IMG/VR virus record: IMGVR_UViG_3300005534_000022
Coordinates: 1-43,901 of that record
DNA from: a virus
Length of the DNA stretch: 43,901 bases
Reading direction: 5' to 3' (one strand)
Shown: one piece after another, positions 13,315 through 40,812 of the stretch
Layout of the letters: each line of letters starts with the position of its first letter
Position numbering within the stretch: the stretch's first letter is position 1
Notes under the pieces: generated by a model
The model's database searches: none
The model's input: the letters and a program-made list of their open reading frames with translations, nothing else
Told to the model about the DNA's origin: nothing
Position numbers and translations under genes: made by a program

Positions 13315-16300
13315 TTATCGCGGATTCACCACGCGGCTCAATTCCGAGTTGAACGGATGAGGGCTTTGCAGCACCTGCTTCATCGCATTTCCGATATCGT
13401 CGGCTCTGTCGAGAAAGCCTTTCGAGTCCATAGCCGTCACTGGAACCGAAACGTAAGTGTTATGCGTTACCTGGGGCGGGGGCTGCTGCCGCGCGGTCGC
13501 TTGCGGAGTCATATCGCGCGGGGAAGCTATCTCCGGCGTGTTGACTGGCACCGGGGCCTGATCGGAATAAACGTTCGATGCAAGCGGTGAAGAGGGAACG
13601 GCGGCGGTCGAACGCGCCGTAAGCGCAGTCTGGTTCAGTGCGTTCAGCAGCGCCGGAGCATTCGGAACCGGCGTGCTCTGCGGTGTCAGGGAGCTTTGGC
13701 CCAGCGTATTCATGAGCCCCTGAAAGTTGAATCCACCGCCCGTCGGGGGAGGCGGCGCGGCAGCAACTCCCGGCGTCGCCGTTCCCACATAGCCCTGCGT
13801 CGTCGTTACAACCCGGTCGGGGTGTAGCGGATCGAAGCCGGTGGCCTGATTGTAAAACTGAACTTGTGGAGCGGCACCCAGAGAATGCAGATTGCCTTTG
13901 TAGTCCCGATCCAAAGCGTTGCCCGAGCTGTCGATGGTTGCGTTGACCGCGTCGGGCCGGTTGAATTTGAGGGCTGCGAGTTCGGTGGTTTCCTGCTTCT
14001 GCCTCTCCGCTCGGGGATCGCCAAACAGTTTGCTGATGCCTTCGAGGATCGCGCCCGCGCCGGCGATAAACGGAGCGGCAGGGCCGGTGAGCGGAGCGAT
14101 AGCTAAGGCCGTTTCGCCGATGCCCGCCGTGATATTGCGTCCGCCGCCTTTGGCGGCCTGGCTGATCCCCTGGAAAGCTCCGCCCGCAGCGCCGGCTACC
14201 GTGAGCCCCGCGCCGATGGCCGCGCCCGCTCCATTCGCGCCCGTCAGATTGCTCCAGACGCTGGGGGCGGGCTTGGCCTGCGCGGACGGGGACGCGCCGC
14301 CGGAGGAAGCGGCTGGTGTGCTGGAGGGCGATGAATCCGAGGATGATCCGCTGGACGAATCCGATCCGCCGGATGCGGCCTTGGATGCAGCCTTGGTCGC
14401 CTCTGCCTTTTGAGCTGCCGATACGATGGCTACCGCGCCGCTGAGAACCCCGCCCGCGCCGCTAACCGCATTGGAGGCTCCGCCGGAGGGGACTATACGG
14501 GAGATTTCAGAGCCAAAAGTCGATATCGACGCGGCGAGCTTAGCCGTCTGCGCGGATGCCGAAGACGTAATGGTATCCGATACCTTGGCACTGGCCGCCG
14601 GCGCTTTCGCCGTCTCCGAACGATCGGCGGATTTCGCCGGACTCGGAGTTGCGGCGGGTATATTCGGAGTTACGCCGGTAACGGAAAACGGCCCGGTGCT
14701 GATGCCGGACGGCTGGCCTGTGAGTGCTTCAATCTGGGCCGCCGATGCTTGCGTGTTGAGATTTGACGCCTGGGTGTTGAGGTTGGACGCTTGGGTATTG
14801 AGAGCGAGCGCTTGGAGATAATCGGGGAACCGGTCGCTGAAGGCGTTGCCCTGTGCAAAGGCCGGAGTCTGTCCGGCTTGCAGCGCGGCCTGAATCGAGG
14901 ACGTGTCGCCCGCACCTCCCGCCGCGAACCGCAGCATGTGATTCGGAATAATCGATCCGCCGGGAGTGTTGATAATCTCCGGTCCGTGAGCGCCCACGAT
15001 CTGCGGTTCACTCGAGAGCACCCGCGCGGGGCCGGGCTTCAGTTTGCCTGCGGGGAAATAAAGCTCGGGGCCGAGTTCGCCGGCTACGGCCTTTTCGCCG
15101 GGGCGGAGAGGCCCGCCATTGGCGCGCTGCGTCAGGTCCGGCGTTACCGCATCTTTCCTGTTGAGCCTGCCGTAATACTGCTTCATGGCGGCGCTGAATC
15201 CGCCGTTTTCTTCGATCGTCTTCTTGGCGGATGCCGGGTCTATCGATTTGCGCGCCTGCGTCCGCACGGTCTTGAGAATCTCTTGCGGCGTGACATCCGG
15301 GTTGATGGACTCCGGGACTTTGTGCGCGAATTTGGCGAGCGGGGAGTTGCCACGGCTCGAATTGCAGCGGTGGCAGCTTGTGATTAGATTGGTTGCTTCG
15401 TTCGATCCGCCTTCGCCGTGGGGCACGATGTGGTCGAGCGTCAGCTTATATTCCGGTCCGTCGCTGCCGTTCTTGCGGCAGTACGCGCATTCAAAGCCGT
15501 CCCGCTGATAAATGGCGAGCCGCTTGTGGGGGCTGATCCAATTCATCCCCTGGCCCTGACCGCCGCTGCGGGTGTGCCGATCCACCACGTCCGCGCGGCG
15601 TCCGAGAGGCACTTTCATTGCGCCTTCTTCGTCGGCCCAAAAATCAGCCCCTGTCTTCAGGATTATTTCCGCCATCTCGGGCGAGACGGCCCGAGGCCCG
15701 ACGAAAGGCGCGGCGGCTCCTACGCCCGTTCCGAATGCGCCCGCGATATCGCCTTTTTTGATCTGTTCGGCGGCTGTGCTGAACGGTTGACCGATAAACG
15801 GAATGCTTCCCAGGGCGTGCCCAACCGTCCCCACAAAGGTCGGATCGGTCGCGGCCTTGTGGAATTCGGCAACGCTGTTAGCCCAAAACGCATCGCTGCG
15901 CCTTAAGGATTCTTGCTGCGTCACCGGCCGCAGCAATTCAAGCAATCCGCGCGGATCGACCTGCTTCCACGCGCTCCCGGCGAATCGTTTTACGCGGTCC
16001 GCGATCTGCTCATCGCTCGGCTGGCCCAGTTGTTTCCGCAGGACTTCTTCATCGGTTAAAACGATCCGCTGAGCGTCCGGCGGCTGGCCGGCCTTCGGCA
16101 GCGCATACGGCAATCCGGGTATCAGCGTCGCCGGATCGAATGCGCCATCGGCGGCGAAGCGCATCGTCTCGGGAAGAAACACTTCCCGCCCGCGCTCGCC
16201 CGCGATTCCATCCATGCCGCGCCGCATATAGCCGCCATCGGCGAAGCGCGGCAGATTCGCCGTGAGCATGTGGTACAGCCGCTCTGGATTGAGAGAGCCG

Positions 16301-19300
16301 CTGTCGGGATGAGTTTTTAGGGTGACGCCCTGGCGCTTCAGAATCTCCTGGTCTGAATCTGCCGCTTGATTATCTTGCGGTCCGTAAACGCGCTCGATCC
16401 GTTTCGCAATATCCGGTCTATTCTGACCGACCCCGACTTCATTCAGTACCTGTAAGCGGAAGGCTCGCGATTCTTCCGGGTTTAAGCCGGGAATGATCCC
16501 GTGAAATTGCACAGCATAAGCCATGCCCTCGGTCACTGCGGAAGCATCCGAAAGATTCCCGTAGAGTCCTGGCGCGTGTAGGGTGAGGTCCGCGCGGATT
16601 TTGGGGATATAGCGCGCCAGATCGCCTGTTGCGGTGATATCGGTCAGGACGGGCCGGAGCAGCGCATGGATCTCTTCGTGCCGTAATGTATCGGAGCTTT
16701 GTTTGGGATCGGTCGCCTCATTCAGGAAAATGCGGCCGAAATTCTGAGCGCCGCTTTCGCCCGCTCCGGGAGCGTCGTAGGAATAAACCGGAGTGCGCGA
16801 AATGCGCGTGTAAGCGCTCGGGGACGCTAAGCCCAGCGAGGCTTTGGCCTCTTCCCCAATGAGCCCCGTCGAAAACATCGAAGTCGATGGCTTTGACGGC
16901 GGAGTAGTCGACGAATCGTAGGCTCCGTCTGCGGCGAACCGCAGACCTTGCAGCATGTGATTCGGGACGATGCTTCCGGCGACTTCCGGGATGAATAGCT
17001 CCGCCCCTTTTTCGCCGACTACCGTCAATTGCTTGCTGCGGAGAGGGCCGCCGTTGGCCCGGAACTCCAGGGATTGAGATGGAATGGCGGCGCTGCGCAG
17101 GGTCTCGGCGGCATCGAGCTTATCGGCTGCGCTCGGAACTGGCGCTTCCGGGGCGAATACCGGGGATTGCGGAATGGCGGGCGCTGCCACTTGAGCGGGC
17201 GTCGCCTGTTTTGCGGCAGCGGGGTTTAGCTTGTCCCGTATCTGTTTGAGAACTTCGAGCGAATCGTTGGCGTTCCGGTCTATCGCGGCTTCGAGCTTAT
17301 CTTCCGGTTTGGCTGCAAAGGGCGTGATGCCCGCCAGCAGCTTGCCGAGCGTCGTTAGCTCCTGATGTGGCTGGCCATCCGGCCCGGTAACGGATTTGGT
17401 CTGCCCGCCGATGGTGGGCAGGAATTTCTTAATTTGCGGATAGGCGAGACCGGCGAGATTCTCGAAAAGCTGTCTTTCGATTTTCTGGCCGACGCCCTTG
17501 AAGTAATCTCCGACCCCGCGCGCTCCTCTGGATTGAATCGCATCGAGGAAAGAGCCCGCCTGGGATTTGAAATCCTCCAGTTCTTTCTTGCGTTCATCCG
17601 CCAGTTTTTCTTCGGCGTCGAAACGTCTTTTGGCGATGTCGTCTTCGGCCTGCGAGACTTCCTTGTACTCTTCCTGGCGGAGTTTTCGTATTTCTTCTTC
17701 GGCGTCTTTTTTGCTCTTGGTCGCGTCCTTCTCGACGCGTGCAATATCCTGTTCGGTTCGGTCGACGTCCGTGAATACTCGCGCCAGATCGTCGGCCTGC
17801 CGCACGGCATCGCCGCGCAGTTCGGCCTGCCGCTTCTCGCTGGGCGTGGTGGCATTCGCTACGTCGAGCCGCGCGTTGCCTTCGGAGATTACGCGGTGGC
17901 TTGCGGACGATAGATCCGCGCGCTCGCGGACGCGCGCGATTTCCGCTTCGTCGGATTTGAGCTTTTCATCGGCCTCTCTTTTATCGAGAGCGATGATATC
18001 GAGCCGCTCCTGCTTTTCCGCTTCGTTCAGCGCTTTACGGAGAGCGTATCTGGCTTGATTTGTGGCGTCGCGGATCTGTTTCTGCCGGTCGTCCCGCGCC
18101 TTCTCGTCGTGATTTATGTCGAACTGTTCGGCCTGAAACGCCTTAAGATCGGCGATGCGCCGCTTGGCGATTTCAAATTGTGTCTTGGCCTCATCGTCGC
18201 TTTCCGTCTTCTTCTGCGCGATGTCTTCCCGGTCTTCGCCGCCGCTTGCATTGGTCAGAGCCTTCGCAATTTGAGCTTTGCCCCGCGCGGCGCTGCGCTC
18301 GGCATCCCGTTGTAATTCGAAGATGGTTGTCGCGCTGCCGCGTTGGTTCTGTATCCGGTTGAGAGCGAGTTGCTGGGCGAACTGCGCTTTCTCAGCGGCC
18401 CGTGCCTTCTCTATCCAAGCGAGATTGATTTGCCCGGCGCGGCCCGCCGCGAGCCCCGCTTCGTTGAGGAGCCGGATGCGGCTGTCGTATTTCTCATTGA
18501 TCTTTTCGAGGCCGGTATATTCCTTCGTTAGGACGTCGAGATATTCCTGCTCCAGCCGTTTCGTCGTCGCTGGGCCTTCCGTCAGCGCTTTCAGCGATGC
18601 CTGGAGCTTCAGAACCGTGGCTTGCTGTTTCGCTAGATCCGCTTCGGTATCGATGCGGTTCTGGCCGACGGAAGTATAGACTTTTTGGCCGGTCGCTGGA
18701 TTTGTTCGGGAATCGGTAAGGTGCGCTTGATCGTCCGCAATCTTCTGGCGGGTATCCTTGAGCGCGGCTTCGATGCCTTCCCTGGTTCCGAGCGCCTGGG
18801 CCGCGCGGCGTTTCTCGTCCTGCTCCGCTTTGGGGGATAAGATCGATAGCGCTAAGTCGTCACCGCCGAAAATTGCGGCGCTGGCCGGCCTCTTCTTCTC
18901 TTCCTCCGGTTTCAGTCCCTCAAGTTTCTTGTCCGCAGCCTTGATTTGGGCCTGAAGTTTGGCGATCTTATCGCTGTTGGCGCTCTGATCGGCGAGCAGT
19001 CGCGTTCGCTGAGCGGGCGACGCCTGTTCAAGTGCCTGATCGTTAGTTGCCTTGGCGGTCTGCGACGCCTCGAGCTCTTTTTGAAGCAAATCGCGCTGGC
19101 GCTGCGTTTGATCCCGCTCGGCGTCCTTGCGGGCCTTATCGCGATTTGCCGCGATCTCCGGTCCAACGAATCCTCCCAGCGAGTCAACAATCGCGAGCCC
19201 GGTTCCGACGAATCCGCCGCCGTGACTGGTTGCGGAGTGATCGCGGCCTAATTCATCCGCCAGCGTCATGACGATGGGGACAACGATAGGCGCGATTTTC

Positions 19301-20796
19301 GCGGCTAATTCTTTTTTGAACTGCCCGAACGCGACGGACAGCCTGTTAAATTCTTCATCGGTTTTCGCGAGCGATGGATTCAGTTCGGAATCCATGCCCA
19401 CGTGAAGCTGCTCGACGGCGGCGAGCAATGCGCCGTAATTGAGGATGAGCGGAAGAATCTCTTTCGATCCGCGTCCCAGGATGCGCTGCGCTTCCGCGAC
19501 GCGCTCGCTGGTCGAGCTGATCTTTGAGAGATGCTCAAGGACATTGAGCAGAACCGCGCCTTCGTCCCGCGCTTTTCCCCCGGCATCGAAGAGATTGATG
19601 CCGATGGCGCGGATGGCGTCGGCCGTCTTTTTGCCCGCGCCTGCTGGATCTTCCAGGGCGTTCGCGATGAAACGCGAGCTGGCTTCGAGCGAGCCGAAAC
19701 TGACGCCGGCGATTTTGGAGGCTGCCGATAGCTTTTCGGCCTGCGTTTCCGCGATCCCTAAACGCAGCGCGGTATTTTCGAGTTCATGCGCGGCAAGGGC
19801 CGAATTCCGCACCAGATCGAGCGCCGCCTTCGCCGCCACTCCCAGCGCCGCGCCCACGGCAAAGGCCGCCACTCCGACCGGGCCGAGCGCATCGGCCGCG
19901 TCCCCGGCATATTGCCCGATGCTTTGCAGCGGGTTCTGAATAGCCTGGCGGATATTCGCGCCGAATGCCGTCCTGTTAGCGCCGGTGGCTTCTTTCTTCG
20001 CCCGCTGATCGAAGACCGCATTGATGCGTTGCTGAAGTTCTGCGTCCTTCCCTGCCAAGCTGAGTAGCTTCTGCCGTTCGGCTTCGATTCGCTGAAGCGG
20101 GGAAAGAAGCTCCTGCTCGAGTTGAATGACTTTCTGCCGCGCGGCCTCGATCTGTTTAGCTTCGGCGAGTTCCTGGGAACGGCCCTGCTTCGCGATTGAG
20201 GCATCGTTTTCAAGATTGGCGAGGCGATTGATCTTTTCAAGCTCGGCGGCTTCCGAGCCGAGCACGGAAACGTACTGCCCTCGTTTGGCCGAAATGCGCG
20301 CGATGCCGGAGAGTTCGCCAAGCTCCGCCTGCTGAATCTCCCGATTGAGAAGCCTGCGGAATTCATCGCGGCCCTCCTCTGCCTTCGCGGGATCGTAAGA
20401 GCCTACGCCTTCCCGTGGCCCCCTGGGGGCTTTCGCGGAAGAGTTATAAAAATCCTCCAGCGCCTTTTTGGATTCGCGTAATGCCGCAGTGCCCCTATCC
20501 GCCGATTGCTCGACCAGATCTCCGAGCACACTTACGCTCGAGCCGGCCTTTTCGGCCGCCTGGCCGTACTGCTCTAAAGGTTTGGGATCGACGGACTTGG
20601 AGGAGAGATTTTGCGCGGACTTCGCGGCGGCATCGAGGGACGATGCGGTTTTTCGTGCCGCGTTTTCTTGCGCTTGGAGGGCGGGGGTTGCTGCTTCGAC
20701 GTTCTGCCGGACCTGGACTTGCGCCCCGGCGAGGCGGCGTAGTTCCGCTTCGCCGCGCGTGACGATGTTATATAAAATCTCGACCGGATTCGGCAT
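13315..20796 (-). CDS. tape measure protein with embedded zincin-like and HNH domains
   Basis: A 2493-residue protein that sets tail length and is ejected with the DNA. Residues 1-120 are the usual TMP start (VEILYNIVTRGEAELRRLAG) and coiled coil, residues about 305-330 and 2240-2330 are hydrophobic Ala/Gly segments, and 200-1130 is a long charged coiled-coil region. Three Gly-rich modules recur at about 1244-1297, 1516-1556 and 1889-1960 (ANGGPLR, GEKGAELFIPE and PNHMLQ blocks). Between the first two lies HEEIHALLRP with E1423 downstream (zincin-like), and between the second and third an HNH domain (CAYCRKN, LDHIVPHGEGG, CHRCNSSRGN). A 21-bp repeat encodes LNTQASN at about 1996-2016. The start has no clear ribosome binding site. 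Confidence 0.85.
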   Translation of the reverse strand: MPNPVEILYNIVTRGEAELRRLAGAQVQVRQNVEAATPALQAQENAARKTASSLDAAAKSAQNLSSKSVDPKPLEQYGQAAEKAGSSVSVLGDLVEQSADRGTAALRESKKALEDFYNSSAKAPRGPREGVGSYDPAKAEEGRDEFRRLLNREIQQAELGELSGIARISAKRGQYVSVLGSEAAELEKINRLANLENDASIAKQGRSQELAEAKQIEAARQKVIQLEQELLSPLQRIEAERQKLLSLAGKDAELQQRINAVFDQRAKKEATGANRTAFGANIRQAIQNPLQSIGQYAGDAADALGPVGVAAFAVGAALGVAAKAALDLVRNSALAAHELENTALRLGIAETQAEKLSAASKIAGVSFGSLEASSRFIANALEDPAGAGKKTADAIRAIGINLFDAGGKARDEGAVLLNVLEHLSKISSTSERVAEAQRILGRGSKEILPLILNYGALLAAVEQLHVGMDSELNPSLAKTDEEFNRLSVAFGQFKKELAAKIAPIVVPIVMTLADELGRDHSATSHGGGFVGTGLAIVDSLGGFVGPEIAANRDKARKDAERDQTQRQRDLLQKELEASQTAKATNDQALEQASPAQRTRLLADQSANSDKIAKLQAQIKAADKKLEGLKPEEEKKRPASAAIFGGDDLALSILSPKAEQDEKRRAAQALGTREGIEAALKDTRQKIADDQAHLTDSRTNPATGQKVYTSVGQNRIDTEADLAKQQATVLKLQASLKALTEGPATTKRLEQEYLDVLTKEYTGLEKINEKYDSRIRLLNEAGLAAGRAGQINLAWIEKARAAEKAQFAQQLALNRIQNQRGSATTIFELQRDAERSAARGKAQIAKALTNASGGEDREDIAQKKTESDDEAKTQFEIAKRRIADLKAFQAEQFDINHDEKARDDRQKQIRDATNQARYALRKALNEAEKQERLDIIALDKREADEKLKSDEAEIARVRERADLSSASHRVISEGNARLDVANATTPSEKRQAELRGDAVRQADDLARVFTDVDRTEQDIARVEKDATKSKKDAEEEIRKLRQEEYKEVSQAEDDIAKRRFDAEEKLADERKKELEDFKSQAGSFLDAIQSRGARGVGDYFKGVGQKIERQLFENLAGLAYPQIKKFLPTIGGQTKSVTGPDGQPHQELTTLGKLLAGITPFAAKPEDKLEAAIDRNANDSLEVLKQIRDKLNPAAAKQATPAQVAAPAIPQSPVFAPEAPVPSAADKLDAAETLRSAAIPSQSLEFRANGGPLRSKQLTVVGEKGAELFIPEVAGSIVPNHMLQGLRFAADGAYDSSTTPPSKPSTSMFSTGLIGEEAKASLGLASPSAYTRISRTPVYSYDAPGAGESGAQNFGRIFLNEATDPKQSSDTLRHEEIHALLRPVLTDITATGDLARYIPKIRADLTLHAPGLYGNLSDASAVTEGMAYAVQFHGIIPGLNPEESRAFRLQVLNEVGVGQNRPDIAKRIERVYGPQDNQAADSDQEILKRQGVTLKTHPDSGSLNPERLYHMLTANLPRFADGGYMRRGMDGIAGERGREVFLPETMRFAADGAFDPATLIPGLPYALPKAGQPPDAQRIVLTDEEVLRKQLGQPSDEQIADRVKRFAGSAWKQVDPRGLLELLRPVTQQESLRRSDAFWANSVAEFHKAATDPTFVGTVGHALGSIPFIGQPFSTAAEQIKKGDIAGAFGTGVGAAAPFVGPRAVSPEMAEIILKTGADFWADEEGAMKVPLGRRADVVDRHTRSGGQGQGMNWISPHKRLAIYQRDGFECAYCRKNGSDGPEYKLTLDHIVPHGEGGSNEATNLITSCHRCNSSRGNSPLAKFAHKVPESINPDVTPQEILKTVRTQARKSIDPASAKKTIEENGGFSAAMKQYYGRLNRKDAVTPDLTQRANGGPLRPGEKAVAGELGPELYFPAGKLKPGPARVLSSEPQIVGAHGPEIINTPGGSIIPNHMLRFAAGGAGDTSSIQAALQAGQTPAFAQGNAFSDRFPDYLQALALNTQASNLNTQASNLNTQASAAQIEALTGQPSGISTGPFSVTGVTPNIPAATPSPAKSADRSETAKAPAASAKVSDTITSSASAQTAKLAASISTFGSEISRIVPSGGASNAVSGAGGVLSGAVAIVSAAQKAEATKAASKAASGGSDSSSGSSSDSSPSSTPAASSGGASPSAQAKPAPSVWSNLTGANGAGAAIGAGLTVAGAAGGAFQGISQAAKGGGRNITAGIGETALAIAPLTGPAAPFIAGAGAILEGISKLFGDPRAERQKQETTELAALKFNRPDAVNATIDSSGNALDRDYKGNLHSLGAAPQVQFYNQATGFDPLHPDRVVTTTQGYVGTATPGVAAAPPPPTGGGFNFQGLMNTLGQSSLTPQSTPVPNAPALLNALNQTALTARSTAAVPSSPLASNVYSDQAPVPVNTPEIASPRDMTPQATARQQPPPQVTHNTYVSVPVTAMDSKGFLDRADDIGNAMKQVLQSPHPFNSELSRVVNPR
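14747..14809 (-). repeat. 21-bp tandem repeat, three copies, in the tape measure gene
   Basis: Three imperfect 21-base units at 14747-14767, 14768-14788 and 14789-14809 encode three copies of LNTQASN. The unit length is a multiple of three, so copy number changes would lengthen the helix without breaking the frame. Confidence 0.75.
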
Positions 20797-34121: not shown

Positions 34122-35528
34122 TTAGCGGGTCCGCTTGTGCTGCTTGCGCGGGGCGTTAGTTGCTTTGGCGGGCGTTGCTTTGGCGCGGGGCACCTTGGCG
34201 GCCTCGGGGTTGGCGAGCTTGGGTTCGATGCCGAGCTTGGACATGCGCTCCAGGATGACGGCGCAATATTTGGGCTCAATCTCCAGGCCATAGCAACGCA
34301 CGCCGGTTTGTTCGGCGGCGACAAATTGCGGCCCGGAACCGGCGAACGGCTCGTAACACGTCTCACCGCGCTTCAGGTGTTTACGAATAGGAACTGTAAA
34401 CAACTCGACCGGCTTAGGAGTCGAGTGATTAAATTCACGCCGGTCTGCCTGCGATACGGACTTCAATTCCCAGACGGTCGTTTGATTCCGCTCTCCGTCA
34501 CCGTGCCCATAATCCGGTGGCTGAGAACCCTTGACCCAGCCCATGAAACACGGCTCATGCTTCCAGTGATACTGGCCGCGCCCGAGCAGAAGAACCGGCT
34601 TAACCCAAATGATTTGACGATGGAGGATAACTTGCGCGGCGGCGGCGGCGGCGGCGGCGGCGAAGAATCCTTGAGTGAGATGGGCGTGCCAGAGATACCA
34701 TGCCGCATTTTTAGAAAGAGCGTGCGAAACGGAAATACGGAAAACGGACTCTAAAAACTGCTGTAACGCTTCATCTTTAAATCCGTCATTGGCGACACGC
34801 GGCTTGGCGACACGCGGCTTGGCGACACCCGGATTCGGTCTTTCAGAATTGTCATAATCCACGCCATATGGCGGATCGGTGTTCATTAGCCCGGCGCGCT
34901 CGCCTTGCATCAGCGCTTGGACATCCGCCTCGTTCGTCGAATCGCCGCACATCAGCCGGTGCTTGCCGATCTGCCAGATCTGCCCGCGTTCGGTATGCCA
35001 CTTCTCGCGCAACTCTTCGGCACGGTCAATCGGCGGCGGCTCGTCTTCCGCCACTGACCCCTCGGGCGTAAGCAGCGCATCCCCGGCCCGCTTCAGAACT
35101 TCATCGAACGCTTCCTGGTCATACCCGGCGCCTTCCAACCCGCCCGCTTCCGACTGGACCGATTGCAGCATCTCCGCGAGCATCTGATCGTCATAGCCGG
35201 GTGATAAATCGTTCGTCCGGTTGTCGGCCGCCATAATTCGCAGTTCGGCGGCTTCGTCCTGCGCCTCGATGAAATACACCGGGATTTCCGTGAAGCCGGC
35301 GGCTTTGGCGCGCTCCCAGGAGCCGTGCCCGGCCAGGATGTAGCCGGAACGGGAAGAGGCGACTACGGGCTTGTAAAAGCCATTGGCCGCGATGGATTTG
35401 TCGATAGCTTCGTCCGCGTGCTTCCTTGCGTTCCGCGGATGCGGCTTCAGATCGTCAATCGGGACCAGCCGGCACTCGTGGCGTAGGATCGGGGACGATT
35501 TAGCGGCCTTGTTTTTTCGGGCGGGCAA
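34122..35528 (-). CDS. ParB-like domain fused to amino-DNA methyltransferase
   Basis: A 468-residue fusion. It starts with TTG and has an AAGGA site five bases upstream. Residues 20-110 form a ParB/Srx-type domain (LKPHPRNARKH and GHGSWERAKAAG). The methyltransferase part contains DPPY at residues 218-221 and EPFAGSG at 393-399, the order of beta-class N6-adenine/N4-cytosine enzymes. It probably protects phage DNA from restriction. Two low-complexity features are notable: a triplet-repeat alanine run (residues 290-298) and a tandem repeat encoding VAKPRVAKPR. It has an 8-A run after its stop. Confidence 0.8.
   Translation of the reverse strand: MPARKNKAAKSSPILRHECRLVPIDDLKPHPRNARKHADEAIDKSIAANGFYKPVVASSRSGYILAGHGSWERAKAAGFTEIPVYFIEAQDEAAELRIMAADNRTNDLSPGYDDQMLAEMLQSVQSEAGGLEGAGYDQEAFDEVLKRAGDALLTPEGSVAEDEPPPIDRAEELREKWHTERGQIWQIGKHRLMCGDSTNEADVQALMQGERAGLMNTDPPYGVDYDNSERPNPGVAKPRVAKPRVANDGFKDEALQQFLESVFRISVSHALSKNAAWYLWHAHLTQGFFAAAAAAAAAQVILHRQIIWVKPVLLLGRGQYHWKHEPCFMGWVKGSQPPDYGHGDGERNQTTVWELKSVSQADRREFNHSTPKPVELFTVPIRKHLKRGETCYEPFAGSGPQFVAAEQTGVRCYGLEIEPKYCAVILERMSKLGIEPKLANPEAAKVPRAKATPAKATNAPRKQHKRTR
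34634..34662 (-). repeat. GCG triplet microsatellite (poly-Ala)
   Basis: About nine consecutive GCC/GCG codons encode FFAAAAAAAAAQ within the ParB-methyltransferase. Such trinucleotide runs are prone to slippage that changes alanine number without breaking the frame. Confidence 0.7.
34791..34835 (-). repeat. 15-bp tandem repeat in the ParB-methyltransferase gene
   Basis: The unit GGCGACACGCGGCTT at 34791-34805 and 34806-34820 is identical; a third partial copy begins at 34821. It encodes the VAKPR repeat just after the DPPY motif, and may be a length-variable hinge. Confidence 0.8.
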
Positions 35529-36584: not shown

Positions 36585-37115
36585 TCAGACCAGATCGGCA
36601 ACAGTGCACTCGACGGAAATCGCTTGCTTGAACATTTCGACGAGCACGATGAGCTTGCCCTTGCCGCCCTCTTTTTCCCGTATAAACACGCCGGACACGC
36701 CGCGCAGGGGGCCGCATTTGATCTCGACTTTCGCGCCGGGTTCAAACGACCGGCACGGTGAGGCGTTGGTCATCCGCGATAGCTCCCGGATCTGTTGCAC
36801 TTCCGCGTGGGAAAGCAGGGAAGGACGCCCGGCACAACGGAGGACGTCGTAGATGCCGGGCGCGTGAAGGAGGGACAGACCATGGCGGACGAGAAGGTAA
36901 CCGGGAAACAAAGGCGATTCGACGGACTCGGGCGCGCGATGCGAAAGCTGGCGTTTCCGCCGGTAGACCGGCAGGTAGTTTTCGATGCCGCGCTGTGCGA
37001 GATAGCCCGCGATCCAGATTTCACGGCCGCAATGGACGCGCAGCACGTTCCACGGATCGGGGCGGGGAAGCGGTTTCCAGGGGTTTTCGGGGCCGTTCGG
37101 GCAAGGCTCACGCAC
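36585..37115 (-). CDS. NusG-family transcription antiterminator
   Basis: A 176-residue protein with both NusG domains. The NGN domain runs from about residue 22 and includes VESPLFPGYLLVR (residues 66-77, the PLFPGYLFVR motif). The KOW domain is at about 126-172 (GAKVEIKCGPLRGVSGVF). Such proteins bind RNA polymerase and ribosome or ops-like DNA, promoting read-through of long operons; phages rarely carry one. The GTG start lacks a clear ribosome binding site. It sits in the regulatory block with two sigma-like factors, and could act on the ~30-kb leftward late transcript. Confidence 0.85.
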   Translation of the reverse strand: MREPCPNGPENPWKPLPRPDPWNVLRVHCGREIWIAGYLAQRGIENYLPVYRRKRQLSHRAPESVESPLFPGYLLVRHGLSLLHAPGIYDVLRCAGRPSLLSHAEVQQIRELSRMTNASPCRSFEPGAKVEIKCGPLRGVSGVFIREKEGGKGKLIVLVEMFKQAISVECTVADLV

Positions 37116-37254: not shown

Positions 37255-38340
37255 TTAGGCCGCCATCCTTTCGTTCAAAGGTTGTCCTGCAAGAGCCGCG
37301 CTAAGGCTTCGGTATGCAAGCGCCGCCACGATTGGAATGACGCCGTTTCCAAGGGCTCGGAGTCTGTCCACCCGAGAGGAAGCCCCATGAGAAGTTCCAC
37401 GAAGCGCGGGTTCAAGCGAGGCGTCCCGTCCGAGAAGTTCGCGCCAGGCGTCGAGATCGCCGGGGCCGGGGGGAAAGATTGGCAGGCTGGCCATTCCCGC
37501 GCCGTTGCCGCTAAGTCTTCGCCGCCCGATCCGCGGTTCTTCCGGCTCGCTCTCGCTTCCAGGCCGCCTGTTGGAACTTTGGGCGTAGGCCAGAACCGCG
37601 CCTGCCGATCGAGTCCCGGTTCGTCCTTGCGTTCCCCGCCGCGGGACCGGAAGGAGTCCGAAGCCGGCGTCTGCCAACTCATGACCTGCTTGGCAAACTC
37701 CCCGCCGCCGCCCGCCGTCTTGCCGCGCTTGTCGGTGTTCTGAAAACCGTGCGGTGTTTTCCGGTTCCGCGCCGCTCCCGTCAGCGAATCCGTCGCCCCC
37801 GGATGATTGCCGCAACTCTCCGCGTCTTCGGTCCGCGCGCTCGGCCAGGCAGAACAGCCGCTGCCGTTTGTGCGGGGCCCCGACTTCTGACGCTGTAAAG
37901 AGTCCCGCCGCGCAGCGGTAACCCATGCGTCGAAGCTCTTGCGCGACTTCAAGGAATCCGAGTCTAAGATGGCCGGCGACGTTTTCAAGGAAGACCTGCC
38001 CGGGTTGCATTTCGCGGACGATGCGCGCGACTTCGGGCCAGAGATGCCGCGGATCTTTTTCGGCGAGCCGCTTACCGGCGCACGAGAACGGCTGGCAGGG
38101 ATAACCGGCAGTGAGGATATCCACCCGGCCGCGCCACGGTTTGCCGCTGAAGCTGCGAAGATCGCTCCAAACCGGCGCAGCGTCGAGCGTTCCGTCTTCA
38201 AAACGCGCAACCAGCTTTTCGGCAGAAGTGATTTCCCTTTCCACGTACAGGATCGTGCGAGCTTCCGGGATTGCGAGCCGCAATCCGAGATCGATCCCGC
38301 CGATTCCGGCGCATAGGGAGACGATGGAATATAGAGCCAC
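37255..38340 (-). CDS. C5-cytosine DNA methyltransferase
   Basis: A 361-residue enzyme with the C5-MTase motifs in order: motif I SLCAGIGGIDLG (residues 8-19), catalytic motif IV GYPCQPFS (C82), motif VI ENV (119-121), motif VIII APHKRQRLF and motif IX/X LRALGNGVIP (327-336). It methylates cytosine in a target read by the variable region between VIII and IX. It ends in RMAA. The same bases carry a second, long open frame with different conserved motifs (see findings). No restriction enzyme is nearby, so it is an orphan enzyme for DNA protection or regulation. Confidence 0.9.
   Translation of the reverse strand: MALYSIVSLCAGIGGIDLGLRLAIPEARTILYVEREITSAEKLVARFEDGTLDAAPVWSDLRSFSGKPWRGRVDILTAGYPCQPFSCAGKRLAEKDPRHLWPEVARIVREMQPGQVFLENVAGHLRLGFLEVAQELRRMGYRCAAGLFTASEVGAPHKRQRLFCLAERADRRRGELRQSSGGDGFADGSGAEPENTARFSEHRQARQDGGRRRGVCQAGHELADAGFGLLPVPRRGTQGRTGTRSAGAVLAYAQSSNRRPGSESEPEEPRIGRRRLSGNGAGMASLPIFPPGPGDLDAWRELLGRDASLEPALRGTSHGASSRVDRLRALGNGVIPIVAALAYRSLSAALAGQPLNERMAA
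37275..37682 (-). other. alternative +1 reading frame over the methyltransferase target-recognition region
   Basis: From an ATG at 37682 this frame reads SWQTPASDSFRSR, RQARFWPTPKVP, LNPRFVELLMGLPLGWTD and SEPLETASFQSW to a stop at 37275 (135 residues). The blocks correspond to WPTP and LNPxFVEWLMGxPxGWTD motifs of phage methyltransferase-related proteins, in the frame that the C5 enzyme reads as LADAG, VLAYAQ and RVDRLRALGNG. I cannot show that it is translated; the ATG lacks a good ribosome binding site. Confidence 0.3.
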
Positions 38341-38369
38341 ACGTTACCTTTTCCCGATTTCAAGAAGCA

Positions 38370-38680: not shown

Positions 38681-38888
38681 GTGAATCCCGCATCTGGCAG
38701 TGGTCCATCAGGCACTTTGTCGAGTTGGAGGGCGCGCAGATCGTTCCGCAGTCGCACGCTTCGGGTCGAGCGATCCGAAAGGCGGTCATGACCAGGAAGG
38801 CGGCGACAAAGGAGCCAGCCAGCGCAATCATGGCCGCGAGGAGAAGCCGGGGCTTCGCGCGGCGTTCGATGAAAAGTCTCGCGCTCAC
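38667..38888 (-). CDS. small membrane protein with cysteine cluster, 73 aa
   Basis: A basic start (RLFIERRAKPR) is followed by a hydrophobic span (LLLAAMIALAGSFVAAFLV, about residues 15-33), then a Cys-rich tail (CDCGTICAPSNSTKCLMDHC) that could bind metal or form disulphides. GTG at 38888 overlaps the stop of the methyltransferase (GTGA). Coupled to its neighbours. Function unknown. Confidence 0.55.
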   Translation of the reverse strand: MSARLFIERRAKPRLLLAAMIALAGSFVAAFLVMTAFRIARPEACDCGTICAPSNSTKCLMDHCQMRDSHVRP

Positions 38889-40081
38889 GCCGCCTTCGCT
38901 TTCTGCCGCGCGGGACGCAGCCGGGCGCGGGCCAGCTTCACGTATTCCGGGTTTAGTTCGATGCCGGTCACTTCATCCCAGCCGGCGTTTATCGCGCCGA
39001 TCATTTCGCTGCCGCTGCCACAGAAGGGAACGAGGAGACGGCGCGGGGTGTCGCGCAGAGGCGGCAGAATCAGCTTCGCCAGATACTCGGTGAGCTTGAG
39101 CGGCTTTACTGTGGGGTGGTGATTGCCTGCGCCGCGCTCTTTCCGCGAGGCTTTGGCGCAGTAGAAGAAGCGGGATGCGCCGCCGGAATCTCCAAAATTG
39201 AAACACGATGCGGGCATCGTCATTCCACCTTTGTTGTAAACAACGTTTTTCCCGTTCCCGCACGCCGTCGGATTTTTATTTCCAGGCCCCTTCAAGTCTC
39301 CGGTCTGCTCATCGAGTAACCGCGCCGCTTCCTCGCTGAGCAGAAGATTCGCGGGCCAGCGGCCCAGGGCTTTCGTGAATCGTCCTGGAATACGATCCAT
39401 GCGTCCGTATGTATTCGCCTTGCCTCCTTCGCCGGGTGGGTTCATGCGATGATCCGTTCCAATCCGCCCCGCCGCGATGTTCAACCCAGCCACGCCATGC
39501 TTCAGCGCGTTGCCTGCGTAGGTTCCGTCCAGCGGCTTCATCGCGAGAATGACTGGCTCCCAGGCGGGCTTTAGAGCCGTGCCATAGCCGTCCCAGGTGC
39601 GCGCGGCATCGGTGACGGGGGCGGTTAATGCGCCTGCATCGCCGCTCCCTAACCTGCTGTGAAGTTGTTCTGGATTAAAGTCCGATTTGAATTCGTATTT
39701 ATATCTCTCGCCTGGCTTGCGTCCTACAGGCTCTCGCTTCACCCCTGCCTGCCGGTCCAGCGCTTTTCCGATATCCAAACTTTTCGGGAAGCCCTGCCCA
39801 TGTAAGAACATCAAGCAATCCCTGATCTCAAACCCCGCGTCTTCAATCGCGCACATGAGCCGGTGATGCGTCCGCGTTCCGCCGAAAGCCAGCAGCATCG
39901 CGCCGGGCTTCAGCACACGGAAAACATCGCGCCACGTGTCCGCCGATGGGACGCCATGATCCCAGGTCTTGCCCATGAACTTCAGGCCATACGGCGGATC
40001 GCACAGTACCGCATCGAAGGATTCCGCTTCCAGCTTGGCGGCCACTTTGCGAACGTCTCCGCACACAATCCGCGCGCTCAT
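38885..40081 (-). CDS. amino-DNA methyltransferase (N6/N4), 398 aa
   Basis: Contains DPPY at residues 28-31 near the N-terminus and VPFCGSGSEMIG at about 351-361 near the C-terminus, the circularly ordered beta-class layout of N6-adenine and N4-cytosine methyltransferases. The large middle (about residues 110-330) would hold the target-recognition region. Its C-terminus, KAKAA, overlaps the next gene start as GCGTGA. No cognate nuclease is near, so it is an orphan enzyme, probably anti-restriction. Confidence 0.8.
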   Translation of the reverse strand: MSARIVCGDVRKVAAKLEAESFDAVLCDPPYGLKFMGKTWDHGVPSADTWRDVFRVLKPGAMLLAFGGTRTHHRLMCAIEDAGFEIRDCLMFLHGQGFPKSLDIGKALDRQAGVKREPVGRKPGERYKYEFKSDFNPEQLHSRLGSGDAGALTAPVTDAARTWDGYGTALKPAWEPVILAMKPLDGTYAGNALKHGVAGLNIAAGRIGTDHRMNPPGEGGKANTYGRMDRIPGRFTKALGRWPANLLLSEEAARLLDEQTGDLKGPGNKNPTACGNGKNVVYNKGGMTMPASCFNFGDSGGASRFFYCAKASRKERGAGNHHPTVKPLKLTEYLAKLILPPLRDTPRRLLVPFCGSGSEMIGAINAGWDEVTGIELNPEYVKLARARLRPARQKAKAA

Positions 40082-40812
40082 GCCGCCTTCGCTTTCCGTG
40101 GCCGCGCGGCTGTCGCGGCTTGGCTGAGGCGCTTTGCGGCGATCTCACAATAGCGCTCCTCGATTTCGATGCCAATAGCGCGACGGCCAAGGTTCTTAGC
40201 GGCCACCAGTGTCGTGCCACTGCCCATGAATGGATCGAGACATTCGCCCTCGGGAGGCACCATCGCCCCGACAATTTGGAGTATTAAGGGCAACCACTTC
40301 TGTGTCGGGTGATCTACCTTTTCATGCGCCCTGATTCCATGGCGGTACGTGTCGGAATAAAAAACATTCCGGCGCGATGTGTTTTCGTCGCGAAACCACG
40401 CGCCCGGAGTATATCCGTAAAGCGCATACTCGAATCCACTCGGCCACCAATTACCCCGCATCGCCGGAGGCGGACACGCTTTAATCCAGACGGCTGGCTT
40501 GACCGTAAAAGATCCTTCTAGCGCCAGTTCGATGAACGACACTTGGGACGCTCCGCAGAATGTAAAAAAGCTACGCGCGTTTTCGCAGGCCGCCACAATT
40601 CCATGAATTGCGACATCCCTGGCCAGTGGTCCATCCCACGAAAACTCCAGCCGCCGCGATCCGTCCAGGCGCATTTGTGAGCCAAAAGAGTTCCGTATCG
40701 CATACGGTGGATCGGCGATAACAACGCGCGGCGACTTCGGCAAGCTCGGCAGCACTTCCCGGCAATCGCCGTGATAGATCGTGATTCCAGCGCGTGAATA
40801 ATAGGACTTCAA
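40078..40812 (-). CDS. amino-DNA methyltransferase (N6/N4), 244 aa
   Basis: Begins SYYSRAGITIYHGDCREVL and carries DPPY at residues 34-37 and DPFMGSGTT at 193-201, the compact beta-class set (motif IV, then I) of site-specific adenine or N4-cytosine methyltransferases. It ends RKAKAA, nearly the same C-terminus as the neighbouring enzyme, and its stop overlaps the next start (ATGA). It starts at a TTG that overlaps the stop of the sigma-like gene. One of three amino-methyltransferases in the block. Confidence 0.8.
   Translation of the reverse strand: MKSYYSRAGITIYHGDCREVLPSLPKSPRVVIADPPYAIRNSFGSQMRLDGSRRLEFSWDGPLARDVAIHGIVAACENARSFFTFCGASQVSFIELALEGSFTVKPAVWIKACPPPAMRGNWWPSGFEYALYGYTPGAWFRDENTSRRNVFYSDTYRHGIRAHEKVDHPTQKWLPLILQIVGAMVPPEGECLDPFMGSGTTLVAAKNLGRRAIGIEIEERYCEIAAKRLSQAATAARPRKAKAA

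Follow-up and report, generated by a model that had tools for sequence, protein, structure and literature searches.

Two overlapping genes on the minus strand of a 43,901-nucleotide viral DNA (positions 1 to 43,901 of IMG/VR virus record IMGVR_UViG_3300005534_000022; this whole stretch is called the window below) probably code, to judge from sequence comparison, for a C5-cytosine DNA methyltransferase made of two polypeptides. Both reading frames are conserved; the larger one (A) is held open where the +1 frame (B) is the one under selection, and start signals for B are found in many relatives. Because the core of motif IX lies in B and because selection acts on different frames in different regions, A is read as the alpha and B as the beta polypeptide of one enzyme. 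Alpha would supply motif X along with catalytic motifs I-VIII, the link between them being a stretch in which the amino acids are hardly constrained; beta, separately started (in the window at a putative start codon that precedes alpha's by 2 nt), would supply the target-recognizing variable region and motif IX. We infer that both proteins are made and that they assemble into one enzyme, which would methylate the phage DNA at a specific sequence, set by the variable region of B, and would probably serve to protect that DNA from host restriction.

Layout of the locus

Frame A runs from a GTG at 38340 to 37255 (361 aa; this and all the features that follow are on the minus strand). It contains motif I (CAGIGGIDLG, 38284-38313), motif IV with the catalytic PCQ (PCQPFS, 38083-38100), motif VI with ENV (LENV, 37978-37989), motif VIII (GAPHKRQRLF, 37852-37881) and motif X (RALGNGVIP, 37333-37359), as a C5-cytosine methyltransferase should; motif IX and a full-length Pfam match are not found with them in this single polypeptide. 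Frame B had been described as extending over 37275-38363. It is indeed open that far, from a TTG at 38363 (362 aa), but the start that is conserved is the GTG at 38342, from which B (beginning VWLYIP) reads to its stop (37275-38342). The start codons of the two frames overlap in the sequence GTGTG (38338-38342), with B starting at 38342 and A at 38340.

The open reading frame list confirms that A and B are both open over the shared bases, with B in +1, and each of the frame B blocks quoted in the preliminary description is present in the window: SWQTP (37662-37679), FWPTP (37578-37595), LNPRFVELLMGLPLGWTD (37362-37415) and SEPLETASFQSW (37326-37361). The first two lie in the variable region (37578-37679), where B is the selected frame and where the bases of the blocks read ELADAG and VLAYAQ in frame A. 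The proposed equivalence of LADA in A with WQTP/WPTP in B thus holds for WQTPA, which lies over ELADAG, but not for FWPTP, which overlies LAYA; the equivalence of GWTDSEPLETA in B with RVDRLRALGNG in A is exact, base by base. Between the variable region and LNPRFVELLMGLPLGWTD, the putative motif IX, for which B is again the selected frame, lies a block in frame A (FPPGPGDLDAW, 37444-37476) that is kept in the window's clade and for which A is the selected frame, as it also is for motif X.

Genes for three N6_N4_Mtase proteins (PF01555) lie on the same strand, at 34122-35528 (with an N-terminal ParB-like fusion), 38885-40081 and 40078-40812, for a total of four methyltransferase genes in this phage when the C5 enzyme is counted. 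Directly downstream of the methyltransferase pair is a gene for a NusG-like protein (36585-37115, minus strand; PF02357 and phrog_6386, transcription antiterminator), and the same gene cluster includes a sigma-70 region 2 match (PF04542; 40809-41318, minus strand). Further away, 13315-20796 (minus strand) codes for a protein of 2493 aa that has tape-measure matches and, at approximately residues 1757-1835, an HNH endonuclease domain.

Family and domain matches

Frame A matches PF00145 (3.6e-32), over residues 5-172 only, and phrog_363 (1.2e-57). Frame B matches phrog_1008, a 'DNA methyltransferase' family (3.1e-16); searches of Pfam and NCBIfam yielded no match to it, and searches of Pfam, PHROGs and NCBIfam no HNH match. 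B-type proteins are already clustered in PHROGs as phrog_1008, phrog_27243 and phrog_31772, labelled DNA methyltransferase or unknown, and their frame relation to phrog_363, the family of A, goes unremarked there. The conserved LNPxWVEWLMGFPxGWT of B is similar to motif IX of C5 methyltransferases (cf. M.HhaI) and occupies the corresponding place. Of 204 loci, 199 have the core of this putative motif in B and just one has it in A; the assignment is made on resemblance and position, a profile search not being significant. A B profile run against the PDB retrieved no methyltransferase, and only a single chance match (E 0.74). AlphaFold models are poor for the B proteins of the window and of a second locus, L188 (pLDDT 54), and the LNP helix region alone is confident in the model of the window's B. 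As a control, B scores at most 26 bits in each of 17 C5 methyltransferases with a full-length Pfam match; among 13 with a partial Pfam match, 11 have a B in the +1 frame that scores 116-217 bits.

Selection switches frame along the gene

Locus pairs were drawn at random and their amino-acid identities compared between A, B and the unused third frame; the pairs and sequences are related by descent, so that the figures are descriptive and carry no P-values. For pairs at 65-75% nucleotide identity, the identities in A, B and the third frame are.64,.46 and.42 over motifs IV-VIII,.37,.52 and.37 over the variable region,.47,.71 and.43 over LNP..GWT (IX), and.69,.36 and.35 over motif X. These region-by-region identities show that purifying selection switches frame, from A (motifs I-VIII) to B (variable region and IX) and back to A (motif X). 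In the variable region the amino acids of A drift as freely as those of the unused third frame, also in 534 pairs at 70-80% identity (.49,.67 and.47 in A, B and the third frame). The comparison of purifying selection in both frames that the preliminary description had proposed finds A and B each to be selected, by region. The two known endings of the family that it saw sharing the same DNA are better taken as complementary parts (the variable region and IX from B, motif X from A) than as alternatives.

The window's clade (40 loci) follows this pattern with an embellishment: A is the selected frame in motifs I-VIII, in the FPPGPxDxDxW block that separates the variable region from IX, and in motif X; B is the selected frame in the variable region and in LNP..GWT; at the C-terminus both are. 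The simplest reading is that A runs through the variable region for no other purpose than to link motifs I-VIII to X; since the FPPGP block is selected in A in the window's clade, A is no mere linker there. At the other end of the gene, 86% of 184 loci show selection on B upstream of motif VIII (P<0.01). With the general B profile this signal is weak in the window (z 2.1), and in L002 it is absent (P 0.37).

Each frame is held independently of the other

Whether the conservation of B is a by-product of A can be judged from synonymous resampling with the protein of A held fixed (200 resamplings for each of 207 distinct two-frame loci), a sharp test because the wobble base of A is the second codon position of B. 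In every one of the 207 loci, including all 72 that had been picked by A alone, the real B score exceeds all 200 nulls. The median across loci is 131 bits against 37 bits in the null, and frame B contains 6 stops, where 887 are expected. The general B profile was trained on eight loci, the others among the 207 not having been used in training. It scores the window's B at 99 bits against 21±7 for the null, and a clade profile made without the window scores it at 231 bits against 79±13 (with a maximum of 143 bits in 1000 resamplings). An open B frame by itself is unremarkable in the window's G+C-rich gene (P = 0.054 with A fixed). Together with the frame-wise identities, the synonymous null provides strong support for one option of the preliminary description, an overprinted gene, in the sense that B is under purifying selection of its own; that selection on A might fully account for the conservation of B is contradicted by the same null.

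The reciprocal analysis holds B fixed. Among 151 loci selected by B, 145 have no stop in frame A over WPTP..LNP, where 3.5 such loci are expected; the third frame of these 151 loci has 965 stops against 880 expected, indicating that the B-fixed null is roughly calibrated. Only L177, L229 and L234 have many stops in A (15, 11 and 9, which is the null level), and in these three the A reading frame closes after motif VIII, with the B open reading frame running on into a motif X of its own. The same split, with motif X within the B open reading frame, is found in L091 and in Mycobacterium phage Firecracker (gp5, L021), for which two overlapping methylase open reading frames are annotated. A single locus (L226, 802-2058), from a Pelosinus metagenome-assembled genome, has motifs I-VIII, WPTP, LNP..GWT and X all in one frame; it could be a natural fusion, or else an indel error in a lone metagenome-assembled locus.

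How B is started

In the window's clade B starts at ATGTGGCTCTAC(A/G)T, with the GTG of A 2 nt downstream, often just past an upstream TGA. An in-frame start for B is present in 97% of the 149 loci that have a conserved N-terminus (..EQLTLF), against 66% in the null. In 50% of them the B N-terminus is preceded by an ATG together with a Shine-Dalgarno-like site, against 13% in the null, an enrichment of ~4-fold. These start signals and the selection on B upstream of motif VIII favor separate initiation, which is more likely than frameshifting to be the way in which B is made.

Distribution and annotation

Related A/B pairs occur in ~250 phage, prophage and plasmid loci. By tblastn, B has matches in over 140 phage records (E below 0.01); Lacticaseibacillus phage R23.9 is among the isolates that have the pair. 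IMG/VR was scanned with A and also with B, and GTDB genomes were scanned with B; these scans yield 240 loci, with some contigs recurring across them. With the phage records counted in, both proteins are present at 262 loci, and at 259 of these B lies in the +1 frame with respect to A. Nearly all of the phages examined, which range from 47 to 70% G+C, have an uninterrupted A-type methyltransferase in the other frame; in the low-G+C phages, near 50% G+C, the third frame is rich in stops. Another IMG/VR record (L001) contains an identical copy of the window's pair, the closest found; beyond it, identity in A drops to about 43% in the nearest relatives, so that conclusions about the window itself depend largely on its clade.

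Existing annotations treat these loci in diverse ways. Paenibacillus phage Shelly has its nested B labelled 'g55 internal gene', E. coli phage K1G has an 'Mte8-like protein' within the methylase, and the near-identical Synechococcus phages JY39 and Yong-M2-251 are annotated in opposite frames. Among the papers searched, none describes a nested methyltransferase arrangement in phages.

Several loci deserve separate mention. In a Pseudomonas phage (L020) and a Rhodobacter phage (L023) a stretch of B is near-identical (YIAAKKAQGHGMANLNDL), and A is far more divergent over the same bases. A virus contig (L050:133-1950) has A/B pairs in tandem, a complete one followed by a second whose A is without the N-terminal motifs. 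In L225 (648-2148) the N-terminal motif I part of the methyltransferase is in the frame of B, and ahead of the B region there is an insert that looks, by eye, like an HNH endonuclease.

Alternative readings

The notion that B is a true overprinted gene for an unrelated protein (anti-restriction, regulatory or nuclease) that merely overlaps a methyltransferase draws on the fact that B has no recognized domain outside the PHROG families, but it is improbable: B is selected exactly where alpha is without motif IX and without a conserved variable region, it shares an open reading frame with motif X in the five split loci and a frame with motifs I-VIII and X in L226, and for a nuclease the HNH match is missing. 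A programmed +1 frameshift after motif VIII, generating a full enzyme from A (I-VIII) and B (variable region, IX) besides a second form that consists of A alone, would suit the order of motifs along the DNA, which is canonical, and the paired methylase annotation of Firecracker. The preliminary description had suggested something of the kind, a frameshift-switchable recognition domain; it is not favored here and is the less probable of these two readings. Selection on B reaches upstream of motif VIII, B has start signals of its own (the enriched ATG with its Shine-Dalgarno-like site, and in the window's clade a start 2 nt ahead of that of A), and one shift would lose motif X, so that a second would be needed to regain it.

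Two further readings can be given next to no credence. One is that B is a mere shadow of A, kept open and similar by the conservation of A and by codon bias; that an open B is not unlikely in a G+C-rich gene is in its favor, but the synonymous null is rejected throughout the 207 loci and A drifts over the variable region much as the third frame does. The other, also raised in the preliminary description, is that frame errors in sequencing or assembly, or the carry-over of annotations, have produced two half-wrong reading frames. Annotators do differ on the frame to be called, as the two Synechococcus phages attest, and L226 may be an indel in a metagenome-assembled genome; however, the +1 register is the same in all but three of 262 loci from unrelated assemblies, complete isolate genomes among them, A is unbroken in all but six of 151, and the third frame is stop-rich near 50% G+C. 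The artefact is therefore rejected.

Implications

A large and mostly unrecognized class of C5 methyltransferases in phages and prophages is likely to be dual-coded, with the recognition region and motif IX coming from a nested +1 gene and the annotated frame serving there as an open, unconstrained connector to motif X. The recognition domains of many annotated phage methyltransferases would then have been read in the wrong frame, the prediction of their specificity would rest on that wrong frame, and most annotations of such loci would miss one gene, standard annotation overlooking the arrangement. The catalytic and recognition halves would be physically locked together in evolution, and a two-subunit enzyme would be heritable as a single indivisible stretch of DNA. 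Long same-strand overlaps that are strongly selected in both frames are, to our knowledge, rarely documented in bacteria and phages; the A/B overlap recurs in hundreds of loci and many phyla, and is directly testable.

Comparison with known systems

M.AquI is a two-subunit C5 methyltransferase in which motifs I-VIII are separated from motifs IX-X. The division of the M.AquI type, with IX and X in the second polypeptide, is found in the split relatives L091, L229, L234 and L177; in the window, unlike M.AquI, motif X stays with I-VIII in frame A. An out-of-frame gene inside a phage methylase is known from ShiLan, in which a mobile HNH endonuclease gene has been inserted (PMC11855218). The window shares with that element a second protein out of frame within a phage methylase gene whose own frame remains open; unlike it, B overlies the conserved motifs of the methyltransferase itself and has no HNH match.

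The small subunit of M.EcoHK31I is reportedly coded out of frame inside the gene of the large subunit, and by that account the nesting of the small frame of the window's pair within the large gene is alike. M.EcoHK31I (and M.EaeI) is presented as a two-polypeptide C5 methyltransferase in the work of Lee et al. (1995, NAR 23:103) as cited in PMC3404938; its large polypeptide has motifs I-VIII, X and a predicted recognition domain, and its small polypeptide has motif IX (PMC3404938). At the level of motifs and selection, the window's pair likewise has I-VIII and X in the large frame and IX in the small. It differs in that the recognition region is selected in the small frame (B) and unselected in the large (A); the recognition domain of the large subunit of M.EcoHK31I is a prediction from the literature, and in this the window's A departs from it. 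It also differs, on a comparison of descriptions, in that B overlaps nearly all of A, and in its occurrence in phages. By analogy, then, M.EcoHK31I is the closest known enzyme, with the recognition region apparently in beta, not in alpha, in the window's pair.
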